From: an uncultured Pseudomonadales bacterium
GTDB taxonomy: Bacteria; Pseudomonadota; Gammaproteobacteria; Pseudomonadales; Azotimanducaceae
Assembly: GCA_937775265.1 (NCBI GenBank)
Contig: CALKBV010000010.1
Span: 124,001-188,000 of the forward strand
DNA: 64,000 nucleotides
Direction: 5' to 3'
Positions 798-7,394 of this stretch are shown in pieces; positions within the stretch are counted from its first letter, which is position 1; each line of letters starts with the position of its first letter. The position numbers were made by a program, and so were the translations under genes. Under the pieces are notes generated by a model, which searched no databases, was not told the DNA's origin, and saw nothing but the letters and a program-made list of their open reading frames with translations.

Positions 798-3700
798 TTA
801 ATAGGCGGTGCCGCGTTTCGGGTCGTTCTGCACGATCAATGCAGGGTCGGCGTTATCATTGAATCCCCAGAACCTTAACCAATCATCAAGCATCAGATAG
901 AGGCTTGGCACCAGGAACAGTGTGATCACAGTGGCGAACAGTACACCGAACGCCAGTGAGATGGCCATGGGGATGAACATAAACGTTTCCGGGTCGCTGT
1001 CTGTCATCAGTGGAATCAGCCCCACGAAGGTCGTAACCGATGTCAGGATTATTGGCCTAAATCGAACCACGCCGGCTTTGGAGACGGCTTCAAATAATGG
1101 AACGCCTTCTCGCCTTTGCCTGTTGATATAGTCAACAAGGACGAGCGAAGCATTCACGACAACGCCGGAGAGCGCAATGATGCCCAGTAATGAAAAGAAG
1201 ATTAGGTCCCAACCCATAATGTAATGGCCGACGATAGCGCCGACTGCACCAAAAGGAATGACGCTCATGATTACCAGTGGCTGCATGTAGCTCCTTAGTG
1301 GAACTGCAAGCAGAGCGAATATGATCATCAAGGCTAGTGGTACGGTGGCGATCATGCTACCCAGTGCCTTGTTACGCTCTTGCTGTTCACCGGAGATATT
1401 AAATGCGACGCCAGGGAAGTCGGCATTGTAGCATCGGCTTTCCTGGCTGCCGAAGCTGGTGCCTTTGGCGCAGACTGCTTTTTCAACCGCAGCCATGATT
1501 TCTTCAGGGGTCACAATGGAGCGATTCACGTCGCCCTTGACATCGATGACCCGTTGTTGATCTTCCCTGTTGATTGCGCTGAAGCCATCACCGTAAATGA
1601 CCTCGGCAACCGTAGAAAAGGGCACCTCTATGTTTTCGCTTGTACGAATCCTCATGTTCTCAAGGTTACCCAAGGATTGCCGTTCTTTCTCAGGATAACG
1701 AACCATGACCCTAACGTCGTCTGTACCTCTCTGAATCCGCTGGGCTTCCTCACCGTAAAATGCCTGGCGAACCTGGCGTGCAAGGTCGTTGAGGGTTAGG
1801 CCAAGCGGTTTGGCTTCCGGCAGGATGTCCAGTTTAACTTCTTGTTTACCTGCGCGGAATGAATCTGTTAGATCCATTACCCCGGGATATCGTCCAAGTT
1901 CTGTGCGTAAGTAAAGGGCAGCACGCTTCAGCTGTTCGATATCCCGGCCTTTTAGTTGAAGCGCCAGAGCATCACCGCCACTGAATGTTGTAGTGCTGAA
2001 CTGCAGTTCAACCGCATCTGTCACAGAACCTGTCTTCTCTCGCCACTTGTCTGCGATTTTGTTTGTATTCCAGCCTGGCCTGTCCTTGAATGGAACGAGA
2101 TCGAGTACTACCTCGGCAAGATGGCTGCCTCCAGCCGTCCTCATGGGTGGACCGCTACTGCGAGCAGCTTTGACTCCTATGGATTGGAAAGTATGAAGGA
2201 TAACTGAACTGTCTTTATCGAATCCCAGGTCAGCGTTAACCTCTTTTGCGGTTTCAAAAGCAGCGAGTTCCAGCTGACGTGCAGCTTGCTCTGTGTACTC
2301 AACATTGATCCCTTCCGGCATTGTCAGGGTTGCGAAGATTCTGTCGCCCTCAACAGCAGGGAAAAACTGGAATATCACCCGTCCACTTGCGATCAGTGCT
2401 ATTGATGTGATTAGGACTGCTGTTGCGACAGCCCATGTTACCCAACGCCATTCCAGTGTTTTCTCAAGAAAGGGTTTGTAGGTGTTTGTTGCAAAGGACT
2501 CAAGTGCTCCCGAGAACTTGCCCTGAAATTTTATCCAGCCTTCTACAAGGGGGGTGCCTTCCAGAAAGTAGCCTTCAGTTTTTCTATGGGCAAGGTGCGC
2601 TGGCAGGATCAACATACATTCGAGAATGCTAAATACAAGGCAAACGAGCACGACCCAGCCAATGATAGAGAAGAAATCGCCCATGCGACCGGCTATCAGG
2701 AGTATCGGCAGGAAAGCAGCGATGGTGGTCAACACTCCAAACACCACGGGTGTAATTACTTCCGCGGTACCCGCGATAGCAGCTTCCCGGTGATTTTTTT
2801 GTATAGTTTCGTGACTGAAAATACGTTCGCCGACGACAATGGCGTCATCGACAACTATGCCAAGTACCAGAATGAAAGCAAGTACAGTCAGGGAGCTGAT
2901 GTTGATACCGACAAGGGGGAACATCCAGATTGCGCCTAAGATGGCGATCGGGATACCGGCTGCTACCCATATGGCGACCTTGAACCGAAGGAACAGGGTA
3001 AGAATGAGCAGAACCAGGGCTAAACCTGCATAAGCATTTTTAGTGAGTGCGCTGATTCTTCGATCGAGCGCGATCGATTCATCTATCCAGACAGTCAGGC
3101 TGATTCCCGGGGGTAGCTGGACACGCTTTTCCTCAATGTATTTTTTGACCGAGTTTGCTGAGGTAATTGTGTCCTCTTGACCGACACGGTAAACCGTCAC
3201 TGCCACGGATCGTTCACCGTCAAACTTTGCACGCAGGAAACCTTCCTGGAAGGCGTCTTTGACAACGGCGATGTCTCCGATCTCAATATTGGTGCCGTCA
3301 GGACGAGTCACCACCACGATATCTTCGAAATCAGGTCCGCGATAAGCCTGCCCTTTGGAGCGCAGCAGTATCTCCCCACCTTGCGTTTTTATTGACCCAC
3401 CGGGTAAGTCCAGTGAGGCTCGACGAATGGCATTGGCGATCTGGTTCATGGTCAGGTTGTATTGCCGGAGCGTTTGCTCGCTGACTTCAATCGAGATCTC
3501 CCAGGGGCGTGCGTAGGTGACCGAGACCTGCGAGATACCTTCGAGTGAAGAGACGTCATCGCGAATCTCTTCCGCCAGTAGTTTTAGCGTTGCTTCATCC
3601 GTTTCGCCGTGGACAGCGAGGGATATCGTTTGTCCCCTAAACTGCATGGAAGAAACAATCGGTTTTTCAGTTTCGGCCGGGAAAGTCGAAATGGCATCAA

Positions 3701-4043
3701 CCTTGCCCTTGATATCGTTTAGTACCGTCGTGATATCAGCATTTTGTGACACCTCAACCATTACCGAACACATGCTTTCTCTGGAGGTCGAGAAGAATCG
3801 GTCCATCCCATCGATGCCTTCAATAGCTTCCTCAACCCGGATGCAAACAGCCTCTTCAACTTCCTCCGGAGCAGCCCCGAGATAGGGAATCTGAATCTGC
3901 ACGATGCCGGGCTCTATATTCGGAAACTCTTCCTTATGCATTGTAGCCAGAGAGATAAACCCGCCGGTAATAAAAATTGCCATCATCAAGTTGGCGGCGA
4001 CGGGGTTATCAACGAACCAGGTCAGAAATTTATGATTGTCCAT
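798..4043 (-). CDS. RND efflux transporter permease (AcrB/MexF-like)
   Basis: 1081 aa; N-term FLTWFVDNPVAANLMMAIFITGGFISL, two blocks of TM helices and large periplasmic loops typical of HAE-RND pumps. Confidence 0.95.
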   Translation of the reverse strand: MDNHKFLTWFVDNPVAANLMMAIFITGGFISLATMHKEEFPNIEPGIVQIQIPYLGAAPEEVEEAVCIRVEEAIEGIDGMDRFFSTSRESMCSVMVEVSQNADITTVLNDIKGKVDAISTFPAETEKPIVSSMQFRGQTISLAVHGETDEATLKLLAEEIRDDVSSLEGISQVSVTYARPWEISIEVSEQTLRQYNLTMNQIANAIRRASLDLPGGSIKTQGGEILLRSKGQAYRGPDFEDIVVVTRPDGTNIEIGDIAVVKDAFQEGFLRAKFDGERSVAVTVYRVGQEDTITSANSVKKYIEEKRVQLPPGISLTVWIDESIALDRRISALTKNAYAGLALVLLILTLFLRFKVAIWVAAGIPIAILGAIWMFPLVGINISSLTVLAFILVLGIVVDDAIVVGERIFSHETIQKNHREAAIAGTAEVITPVVFGVLTTIAAFLPILLIAGRMGDFFSIIGWVVLVCLVFSILECMLILPAHLAHRKTEGYFLEGTPLVEGWIKFQGKFSGALESFATNTYKPFLEKTLEWRWVTWAVATAVLITSIALIASGRVIFQFFPAVEGDRIFATLTMPEGINVEYTEQAARQLELAAFETAKEVNADLGFDKDSSVILHTFQSIGVKAARSSGPPMRTAGGSHLAEVVLDLVPFKDRPGWNTNKIADKWREKTGSVTDAVELQFSTTTFSGGDALALQLKGRDIEQLKRAALYLRTELGRYPGVMDLTDSFRAGKQEVKLDILPEAKPLGLTLNDLARQVRQAFYGEEAQRIQRGTDDVRVMVRYPEKERQSLGNLENMRIRTSENIEVPFSTVAEVIYGDGFSAINREDQQRVIDVKGDVNRSIVTPEEIMAAVEKAVCAKGTSFGSQESRCYNADFPGVAFNISGEQQERNKALGSMIATVPLALMIIFALLAVPLRSYMQPLVIMSVIPFGAVGAIVGHYIMGWDLIFFSLLGIIALSGVVVNASLVLVDYINRQRREGVPLFEAVSKAGVVRFRPIILTSVTTFVGLIPLMTDSDPETFMFIPMAISLAFGVLFATVITLFLVPSLYLMLDDWLRFWGFNDNADPALIVQNDPKRGTAY

Positions 4044-4048
4044 GAAGG

Positions 4049-5209
4049 TTAACTGTTACCTGACTGCAGCATCGGCTTGACCCGCATACCTTCAACGATG
4101 GTTTGCAAAGGTGAAATATTAACCACGTCGCCGGATTCGAGACCGTCGGACACAATGACGTTGTCGCTTTCGAAGCGGAGGATTTCCACATTACGGTAGT
4201 GCAGGCGGTTATCCTTATCGACCACCAAAACCTTGCTCTGGTTGCGCAGGGCTGCACGGGGAATGGTGACAACACCTTCTGCCCAGCGCCCTTTGATCCT
4301 GGCGTTCACAAAAAGCCCGATTGGAAGGTCAGGCTGGTCGACGTTGTCGTTGTTATTGACCCGAACAACAGCAGTCACCATGCGGCTTTTTGAGTCTATT
4401 TCCGCTTCTGTCCTGACCAGATTGCCGATCCACTCATAATGCTTGCCACCATAATCCGTGAACAGAAGCACTTCAGGCGCGACTTCAGCTGCGAGTTCTC
4501 CGCGGTGGCCGAGCGGAAGATCAAGATACGCTAGTTGCTTGTCAGCGAGCGGCAGCCTGACTTCTGCATACTGTGCTGCGTAGATTGACGCGATCCCCAT
4601 ACCGCGGCTTACATACTGACCAAGGTCAACTTTCTCGGATCTAACCAGACCGTCATAAGGGGCTTTTATTTCTGTACGCTGCAGATCCCGCGCTGCTTGC
4701 TCCAGGGCGATTCTTGAATCTTGTAGCACGGCTTCAGCGATTCGATGGTTTCGAAGCACTGTTTCCAGGCTTGACTGGCTGGTCAGTTTTTTCTTTACAA
4801 GCTCTTCCATACGTCCAAGTTCGAATCTGGCGAGCTCTTCCTCTGCCAGGGAGCGGCTTAACCCTGCCCGACTGCGCGCGACCTTTGAGCGGTAATCGCT
4901 ATTGTCTATTCGGAGCAGCACTTCATCTTTGGTGAAGTACCCGCCTGGAAGAAGGTTCGGTGACATCCAGGAAACTCGGCCGTTAACCTCTGGTATCAGT
5001 TCACTTTCTTTATAGGGCATTACGCTGCCCTGGGAACTAACCTCTAAACGGACTCTTTCCCGATTAACTTCCAACACACGAATGCTGGTCGTGCTCTCTG
5101 TACGGGTGAACTGATCAGGCGCTGGCGCGGATTTCACCAATCCGTAAGCGACGATAACGGCAAAAAACAGAACCGCTATGGTCATTATTCCCTTAATGGC
5201 GTTAGGCAT
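4049..5209 (-). CDS. RND efflux periplasmic adaptor subunit (MFP/HlyD-like)
   Basis: Start taken at MPNAIKGIMTIAVLFFAV (5209), 8-nt overlap with the upstream GntR gene; lipoyl/barrel motifs (APYDGLVRSEKVDLGQYV). Confidence 0.9.
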   Translation of the reverse strand: MPNAIKGIMTIAVLFFAVIVAYGLVKSAPAPDQFTRTESTTSIRVLEVNRERVRLEVSSQGSVMPYKESELIPEVNGRVSWMSPNLLPGGYFTKDEVLLRIDNSDYRSKVARSRAGLSRSLAEEELARFELGRMEELVKKKLTSQSSLETVLRNHRIAEAVLQDSRIALEQAARDLQRTEIKAPYDGLVRSEKVDLGQYVSRGMGIASIYAAQYAEVRLPLADKQLAYLDLPLGHRGELAAEVAPEVLLFTDYGGKHYEWIGNLVRTEAEIDSKSRMVTAVVRVNNNDNVDQPDLPIGLFVNARIKGRWAEGVVTIPRAALRNQSKVLVVDKDNRLHYRNVEILRFESDNVIVSDGLESGDVVNISPLQTIVEGMRVKPMLQSGNS

Positions 5210-5933
5210 TACCCGTACTCCTTTCTGCGTCCGCACCGGCTGCAATGGCTGATTCCAGCAATCCGATTTTAATGATTTGAAAATGTTGAATAACGGCATC
5301 TCTAACGTTCACTTCATCCCGCGACTTAATCGAGTCTCGAAGTCTGATCAGTTGCTGCTTTGCAGCCGATAGGTCGATGTGTGGCTCGAACCCTAAATTC
5401 ATGGTGCTACCCATAAATTGCGTTCGTAGTCCATTACCGACCAGACGCAGGACCAAATTTCTGTGAATTGACATCATTTTGTCGCTGAATTGTATCCAGA
5501 CTTCTGTATGACGCTCCTCGTCTCCTATGGTTTGTACGAGTTGATCGACCAATTGGACCATGTCTATGATATTTTCGTCGTTGGCTTCCACGACTGCGGA
5601 GCGAGCTGACAACGAAGTCATTACAGCGAGGACATCTAATACTTGGCTGATAAGCTCAGGTTTTTGAATTTCCCCGAGTTCCAGAAGATAGCCAAGAACT
5701 TCAAGCGTCGCTTCTTCCACGGGCAAGACCCGGACTCCGCCAGGAGCAACAGCCACTATGCCCAGTTGTTCCAACTTCTTTATGGCTTCACGGATTGCGC
5801 CCCGGTTAGACTCGAAACGCGCAGCCAAGTCTCGCTCAGATGGCAATCGCTCACCGGGTCGGTACTGGCCCCTAAGGATCTCGCTTCGTAACACGGTGAT
5901 AATTTCTTCTGCTCTAGACGGTGGTGTCGACAT
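5202..5933 (-). CDS. GntR family transcriptional regulator (FadR/FCD subfamily)
   Basis: N-term wHTH: EEIITVLRSEILRGQYRPGERLPSERDLAARFESNRGAIREAIKKLEQLGIV. Confidence 0.92.
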   Translation of the reverse strand: MSTPPSRAEEIITVLRSEILRGQYRPGERLPSERDLAARFESNRGAIREAIKKLEQLGIVAVAPGGVRVLPVEEATLEVLGYLLELGEIQKPELISQVLDVLAVMTSLSARSAVVEANDENIIDMVQLVDQLVQTIGDEERHTEVWIQFSDKMMSIHRNLVLRLVGNGLRTQFMGSTMNLGFEPHIDLSAAKQQLIRLRDSIKSRDEVNVRDAVIQHFQIIKIGLLESAIAAGADAERSTGNA

Positions 5934-5968: not shown

Positions 5969-6024
5969 TGGTATGACCATTATGGATCGACCAAATCGGT
6001 CAGACCAATTTGGTCGGACCATTA
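5969..6024. promoter_or_regulatory. Four phased 14-bp operator-like units (TGGTNNGACCA type) upstream of the GntR/RND operon
   Basis: TGGTATGACCATTA / TGGATCGACCAAAT / CGGTCAGACCAATT / TGGTCGGACCATTA, contiguous at exactly 14-bp spacing, 36-91 bp upstream of the GntR start codon. Confidence 0.8.
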
Positions 6025-6548
6025 TAGGCATGTCGCGTTGCATTGCAACATGAATAATCGACCATGTTTTCCTTACTGTCTGCCAAATTGCGAGACTGAT
6101 CCAGATTTGCCAGATGAACTGTCCCGTGTCTAATTTGCGTGGGTGAACCTGGATACACATGTGGTTGTCTTGAAAATTTTCTACGATTATGACGAGACCT
6201 GTTTCCTTATCGATGTTTAACAGGAAGGCAAACTTGTTAACGTTAAAACGGTATACGGCGCAGCGAACAAAACCCGTCGCATTCAACGGTAAGTACTTTA
6301 CATATCAGAAACTCGGCGCCACCTCCTGCATTCGTTGAGCTGGGTGGCAGTGAAGTTCACCCGTCGACGCTGGTGGAAACCATCAAATAGGTCGTGGTTG
6401 GGGATCGTCCTCACCAGGGGGATGGTGATTCATCGATCTTTGAAAAAAAGTGTATTCGCGGCGTTGTTTCCGGAATATCAATGTGGCGACCGAATATACG
6501 ATGGTCGCCTCACCAATACGTGAAGTAGTGCTCGTGTGAATCCTGGGC

Positions 6549-7394
6549 TTGATCCCCGTTCATTACTTTAGCAATCACTGTTATCCTTGTTCACTGTCAA
6601 GTAGTCAGAAATTATCAGCGAATGCCCGTGTGAATATACCCTCAATCCTCTACAAGCTCTACGAACCCTTTCTCTGGTCGCAAATTAAAAATGGCCCAAG
6701 GCCCCACCACATTGGTCTTATTGTTGATGGCAATCGCCGTTTTGCGAGGGTAAAGGGGCTTGCCTCTAATGAAGGACATAACGCCGGCTCACAAAAACTG
6801 GAAGACTTTCTTCGGTGGTGTTGGCGTCTGGATATCAAGATTGTCACTTTGTACGCATTCTCAACAGAGAATCATAAACGCGCAGAGAACGAGGTCGATT
6901 ACCTCATGGACCTGATATTAAAGAAGTTGAAACAATATCAGGTAGACCCTGTTATCAGGCGAGAGGGGGTGAAGATCAAGGTCATTGGCCAGCGAGAAAA
7001 CCTGTCCGAAGAAATGATCACGGAAATTGAGAAAACTGAAGAGCTCACCAAAGATCATGATCGGTTTCAGTTGAACATTGCTGTGAGTTACGGCGGCAGG
7101 GAGGAAATCGTTGATGCCGTTAAGAGCATCGCGAAACAGATCCAGGATAAGCAGATCGCTTTGCAGGATATAGATGAAGAAATGTTCGCCAGTCACCTGT
7201 ATACCGAGGGTATACCTGATCCTGACCTGATCATTCGGACCTCTGGTGAAGAACGTTTGTCGGGGTTTCTGCTTTGGCAAAGTGCCTACTCAGAGCTCTA
7301 TTTCACTGTGGTTTACTGGCCTGCTTTTCGAATGATTGATTTCTGGCGAGCGATTCGGGTCTATCAACAACGGGAACGCCGATACGGCAAGTAA
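6549..7394 (+). CDS. uppS: Undecaprenyl/polyprenyl diphosphate synthase family (cis-prenyltransferase), archaeal-like sequence
   Basis: HIGLIVDGNRRFARVKGL, TLYAFSTENHKRAENEVDYLM, PDPDLIIRTSGEERLSGFLLWQSAYSELYF, RAIRVYQQRERRYGK. Start codon uncertain (TTG at 6549 or a later GTG). Confidence 0.9.
   Translation: MIPVHYFSNHCYPCSLSSSQKLSANARVNIPSILYKLYEPFLWSQIKNGPRPHHIGLIVDGNRRFARVKGLASNEGHNAGSQKLEDFLRWCWRLDIKIVTLYAFSTENHKRAENEVDYLMDLILKKLKQYQVDPVIRREGVKIKVIGQRENLSEEMITEIEKTEELTKDHDRFQLNIAVSYGGREEIVDAVKSIAKQIQDKQIALQDIDEEMFASHLYTEGIPDPDLIIRTSGEERLSGFLLWQSAYSELYFTVVYWPAFRMIDFWRAIRVYQQRERRYGK

Follow-up and report, generated by a model that had tools for sequence, protein, structure and literature searches.

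Transcription regulators of the FadR subfamily of GntR proteins recognize palindromic boxes of the TKGT/ACMA type, usually with 3 nt between GT and AC, and double and triple sites are quite common in this subfamily (PMC4494728). The Escherichia coli LldR box is given as AAnTGGTCnGACCAnTT, with two boxes in each LldR target region (PMC10272880), and the E. coli PdhR box as AATTGGTnnnACCAATT (PMC7660256). A precedent for a multi-dimer arrangement in the same subfamily is that of E. coli NanR, three dimers of which bind to an operator of three repeats, (GGTATA)3, and which carries an N-terminal extension of 32 residues (PMC8012715).

The locus described here lies in a window of 64 kb, that is, the whole stretch of DNA that was analysed. 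Its features, all on the minus strand, are as follows (units are numbered in gene orientation, and mismatches refer to the consensus TGGTCNGACCA):

798..4043, minus strand: RND efflux permease, 1081 aa (PF00873)
4049..5209, minus strand: RND periplasmic adaptor (MFP), above the cut-off of TIGR01730
5202..5933, minus strand: GntR regulator of the FadR subfamily, 243 aa, with GntR and FCD domains (PF00392 and PF07729)
5969..6024, minus strand: whole array of four units, in gene orientation TGGTCCGACCAAAT TGGTCTGACCGATT TGGTCGATCCATAA TGGTCATACCA
5969..5979, minus strand: unit 4, TGGTCATACCA (plus-strand letters TGGTATGACCA), 1 mismatch, kept in place in close relatives
5983..5993, minus strand: unit 3, TGGTCGATCCA (plus-strand letters TGGATCGACCA), 2 mismatches, the most degenerate of the four
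5997..6007, minus strand: unit 2, TGGTCTGACCG (plus-strand letters CGGTCAGACCA), 1 mismatch
6011..6021, minus strand: unit 1, promoter-proximal (plus-strand letters TGGTCGGACCA), perfect, 0 mismatches
6021..6048, minus strand: predicted sigma-70 promoter TTGCAA-16 bp-TATAAT, 10/12 matches

The four dyads at 5969-6024 are of the FadR/LldR type and follow each other start to start at 14/14/14 bp. An earlier note on this DNA had described four contiguous, exactly phased GntR-type operators in front of a GntR-MFP-RND operon. Both the sequence and the coordinates agree with the number and phase of the units, the boxes are those of the FadR subfamily, and the genes of a GntR protein with an FCD domain, an MFP and an RND permease do follow downstream. 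The distance to the GntR gene needs a small correction, from 36 bp to a gap of 35 bp between the array and the start codon at 5933. Since the operon is on the minus strand, the unit listed fourth in the earlier note is the promoter-proximal one.

The GntR protein combines an N-terminal GntR winged helix-turn-helix with a C-terminal all-helical FCD (FadR_C) domain, as is characteristic of the FadR subfamily, and scores 57.9 bits against PF00392 (cut-off 27) and 30.7 bits against PF07729 (cut-off 24.3). Its predicted structure (pLDDT 87) gave the best TM-scores, of about 0.66-0.70, with E. coli FadR among the matches listed. Arg34, Arg44 and Arg48 are invariant across 29 GntR orthologues, and by eye they appear to be the counterparts of DNA-contact arginines of E. 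coli FadR. The GntR domain begins at residue 8, and the orthologues start within a few residues of it. The protein is not an orthologue of LldR or PdhR, as its full-length scores (34.6 of 311 bits and 50.5 of 330 bits, respectively) are far under the NCBIfam equivalog cut-offs. No second match to it was found in the window's genome (77% complete) at E <= 0.001. The ATG at 5209 is the likely start of the MFP gene, which gives an 8-bp overlap with the end of the GntR gene. The MFP and RND permease genes are adjacent, as in RND efflux operons (ACR_tran, 530 bits), and there is no TolC gene within the GntR-MFP-RND operon. Among the papers searched, we found no report on GntR regulators of RND operons, and likewise none with binding, expression or ligand results for these proteins.

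The consensus of 240 units, TGGTCNGACCA, follows the TKGT/ACMA palindrome of the FadR subfamily, with the usual spacing between GT and AC, and its GG and CC positions are conserved (information of 1.4-1.9 bits). With its A/T flanks, the array unit equals the LldR box and is close to the PdhR box, so that the core dyad is shared with both; the cited parts of the LldR and PdhR reports, however, describe no contiguous 14-bp tiling, and the regulated genes differ (PMC10272880, PMC7660256). Lone TGGTCNGACCA sites with at most two mismatches occur in the 64-kb window at about the chance level, 34 vs. 26.6 expected, while four sites in exact phase are far beyond chance (multiplication of the single-site rate gives an estimate of about 1e-9 to 1e-8 for finding four such sites in a row in 64 kb). 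Pattern search at three mismatches returned mostly noise, and stricter patterns were used instead. In the window's genome (77% complete), a loose two-site pattern had many isolated chance matches and consecutive overlapping ones only at the array, the stricter pattern TGGTCNGACCA-NNN-TGGTCNGACCA matched solely this array, and these searches found no other candidate target genes. The alternative register GACCA-NNN-TGGTC is not favoured, because two-unit arrays retain complete outer half-sites and because the FadR rule is 3 nt between GT and AC. Two further points bear on this choice: the outer half-sites are weak in many three-unit arrays, and a test of half-site covariation, in which complementary changes across the linker numbered 8 vs. 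8.8 expected, favoured neither register.

The position of the array relative to the predicted promoter is close and conserved. In gene orientation, the last base of the TATAAT -10 box is the first base of unit 1, and the array extends from there into the predicted 5' leader of the operon. Of the 70 aligned loci, 63 carry a TATAAT-like hexamer at this position next to unit 1 (other offsets: mean 6.5, maximum 20 loci), mostly with a spacer of 16 bp to the -35 box. Judging by the predicted start site, the array occupies the place where a polymerase-blocking repressor would sit, and this placement over -10/+1 is consistent with autorepression by the adjoining GntR protein, which the earlier note had suggested; in the view of that note, repression would be cooperative and the efflux output would follow the occupancy of the sites. 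A perfect 13-bp palindrome, GTTGCATTGCAAC, lies over the -35 box at 6037-6049, and close relatives have near copies of it. In 22 of the 72 orthologous loci (e.g., L064, L065 and L108), but not in the window, there is a second conserved palindrome, GTTACN5GTAAC (often GTTACCNNNGGTAAC). It is situated just upstream of the -35 box, at a distance of 49-58 bp from unit 1, and resembles a binding site for a different regulator.

The comparison of orthologous upstream regions, whose lack of repeats would have spoken against the operator reading, revealed conservation of both the phase and the operon. The set comprised 72 non-redundant loci that carry an orthologue of the GntR gene, some of them retrieved via the array pattern itself. 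Two or more units at a spacing of exactly 14 bp are present in 71 of these, while each of the other periods of 9-21 bp occurs in 0-8 loci. In the case of the 41 loci selected by protein match alone, the 14-bp chain is present in 39; one of the remaining two has its two units at the border of the segment extracted for that locus, and the other (L094) has a long, degenerate array. Consecutive spacings in the 72 loci comprise 119 of 14 bp, 10 of multiples of 14 bp and 2 others. Between two and seven units are chained together: two units in 11 loci, three in 39, four in 12, five in 4, six in 2 and seven in 3. The GntR-MFP-RND order is retained in relatives, with the MFP gene on the same locus in 69/72. 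GntR orthologues are encoded by most of the searched genomes of the same family and occur in three other families of the order but hardly beyond, and both the phase and the promoter offset are kept across the four families. Nearly all of the matching named records are metagenome-assembled.

Searches that start from the array lead to the same operon. A scan of 121 family genomes for a 14-bp pair with at most two mismatches matched 61 genomes, while the reversed pattern, used as a control, matched 2. The 30 loci that were fetched on the basis of the array pattern alone all adjoin an orthologous GntR gene and an MFP gene. In an exact search that allowed any gap of 0-30 bases, 15 places had, by hand count, a spacing of 14 bp, and no other spacing was close to this number. 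When 51 family genomes were searched both ways, a match was present in 29/34 genomes with the orthologue and in 1/17 without it, a tally that is uncorrected for relatedness; the arrays of the five other gene-bearing genomes are too degenerate for the two-mismatch pattern, which counts against the main reading. The outgroup locus L043 (labelled Deltaproteobacteria) has the same GntR-MFP-RND order with one site and no array, and three more distant GntR proteins at the class level are accompanied by single or scattered sites, with neither a phased pair nor an adjoining MFP-RND. The lack of a phased array in the outgroup loci suggests that the array is a derived trait, acquired by the operon within this order.

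Units of the array come and go whole, as is indicated by the whole-unit insertion, the longer forms and the identical neighbouring pairs found in the compared sequences. When five close relatives were aligned, a clean insertion of 14 bp was seen within the array of one species; array indels are whole 14-bp units, while the flanking indels are of 1-11 bp. Nine neighbouring pairs of units are identical, and neighbours are more alike than random pairs (0.69 vs. 0.64). One genome (G017) has seven units and, further on, five 14-bp copies of AGAGCYYTGCCAAA, and another (G373) has two units plus a second, longer array. The proposal of a recent duplication of the outer units, based on their shared CCATTA, is not supported: the first and last units differ, each is kept in place in close relatives, and the copy change seen in these relatives concerns the middle of the array. 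The CCATTA of the promoter-proximal unit corresponds, in reverse complement, to the -10 box plus GG, and it is this box that supplies the TAAT of the first unit. The TAA before the last unit shows no conservation. In L183 (G811, 1977-4219), a seven-unit array and an orthologous GntR gene are followed by an ABC exporter in place of MFP-RND.

Taken from the sequence, the array is probably the operator through which the adjoining FadR-type GntR protein represses its own GntR-MFP-RND operon, in a scheme that includes contact between dimers and release by a ligand. Each TGGTCNGACCA unit would be the site of one GntR dimer. As unit 1 spans the end of the -10 box and the predicted start, a dimer bound there would block RNA polymerase, and the further units, in the first transcribed bases, would hold extra dimers beside the first one. 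LldR-type 17-bp boxes at a 14-bp pitch overlap by a shared 3-bp linker, therefore adjacent dimers would have to pack tightly, and as the pitch corresponds to 4/3 of a helical turn of 10.5 bp, they would be placed about 120 degrees apart; such packing would be a matter of geometry and not evidence of contact. The simplest reason for the exact 14 bp despite copy change would be that adjacent dimers touch each other, which would make repression steeper. We infer this contact at roughly even chances, and the strict phase is suggestive only as regards cooperative binding of several dimers. The pump substrate or a related metabolite may bind to the FCD domain, release the dimers and induce the pump. 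Binding, repression and the ligand alike are what we infer, with repression preferred to activation on account of the array position. More tentatively, and with rather less than even probability, these proteins may represent a FadR-type lineage with a helical multi-dimer mode and a contact surface other than that of NanR, whose dimers would wind by about 120 degrees per step around the promoter and leader DNA at a 14-bp pitch, while gain or loss of whole units would tune the tightness of repression of the efflux operon.

A 17-bp box at a 14-bp pitch could also cause a clash, with not all units filled, and unit duplication alone also gives a 14-bp pitch. It is conceivable, but in our opinion unlikely, that GntR dimers bind to the array without contacts, that extra units only raise the chance of a site near -10/+1 being filled (or, in a variant, that a clash leaves every other unit empty) and that the pitch persists because units arise via tandem duplication. 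The whole-unit insertion in a close relative, the nine identical pairs together with the likeness of neighbours, and the 14-bp tandem copies in G017 agree with it. However, diverged arrays hold 14 bp and have no 13- or 15-bp neighbours across families, despite common flanking indels, and this lack favours selection on the phase over the mere mode of origin. A further explanation is a neutral minisatellite without a regulatory role, to which the different copy numbers in close relatives could point; the conserved GG/CC positions, the maintenance of phase and promoter offset in four families and the absence of the array from genomes without the GntR gene make this extremely improbable.

A FadR-, PdhR- or LldR-like regulator encoded elsewhere could be the one that binds to the array, given that boxes are alike across FadR-subfamily proteins (PMC4494728, PMC7660256, PMC10272880). 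We regard this as very unlikely, since the array co-occurs with this GntR orthologue, nearly always adjoining it, and no further protein of the window's genome (77% complete) matches the regulator at E <= 0.001. There is similarly little probability that the array acts as RNA, its palindromic repeats forming hairpins in the 5' leader that affect translation or mRNA decay. In the window, the leader does fold better than its shuffles (z -4.5), as do the leaders of several relatives, but palindromic repeats fold anyway, unit 1 is partly promoter and not leader, the complementary changes across the linker are not enriched, and no Rfam family was matched.

If the array is an operator of the adjoining GntR protein, as we prefer, it is predicted to resemble that of NanR, likewise a FadR-subfamily GntR repressor, in holding several dimers side by side on contiguous repeats, the spacing of which matters in NanR (PMC8012715). 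The two differ in that NanR binds to direct GGTATA repeats, not found here, while the array consists of palindromes TGGTCNGACCA at 14 bp in 2 to 7 copies, and in that the N-terminal extension of 32 residues that serves cooperativity in NanR has no equivalent in the GntR protein, with about 7 residues before its DNA-binding domain. The array shares a varying number of contiguous operator repeats with Streptomyces BldC, which forms cooperative multimers, but BldC is MerR-like, binds to asymmetric 9-bp direct repeats and has no effector domain (PMC5859096). The heptads of pSM19035 ParB/omega are also contiguous, phased repeats, and their function depends on number and contiguity; in this case, a ribbon-helix-helix protein acts on 7-bp units in partition (PMC9499535). 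The arrangement had been called unusual in the earlier note, which is justified in part: multiple sites and multi-dimer operators are already known (PMC4494728; NanR, PMC8012715), and the unusual points here are that the phase is strict and contiguous, that 17-bp boxes overlap and that more than three copies are present. The loci form a natural operator series of 2 to 7 units in one fixed register. As they share the regulator and, nearly always, the pump, the effects of copy number and phase on repression are measurable with existing sequences. If the dimers do touch, NanR is not the only FadR-subfamily protein with multi-dimer operator binding, and a new contact between dimers is to be expected. 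In genomes, the array may also serve as a sequence signature by which to recognize this regulator-pump operon.

Beside the array in the window, at 6549-7394, there is a divergent gene of a cis-prenyltransferase (undecaprenyl diphosphate synthase-like), a neighbourhood that is kept in the window's genus and some other genera and not elsewhere. In L179 (G058, 979-1028), an array with a promoter precedes a gene of TolC-type outer-membrane protein, and the GntR gene was not found in this genome (57% complete); the promoter may have been captured, or the assembly may be faulty. As 33 other tolC loci have no phased pair, we rejected the regulation of tolC in trans as a general rule. The array matches of L180 and L181 were assigned as chance ones, with no GntR gene nearby, and fall in a low-complexity stretch and a coding frame, respectively. 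Scattered GGGGTCAGACCCC-like repeats in G020, G059 and G846 probably belong to a family of dispersed repeats that has no relation to the operator.
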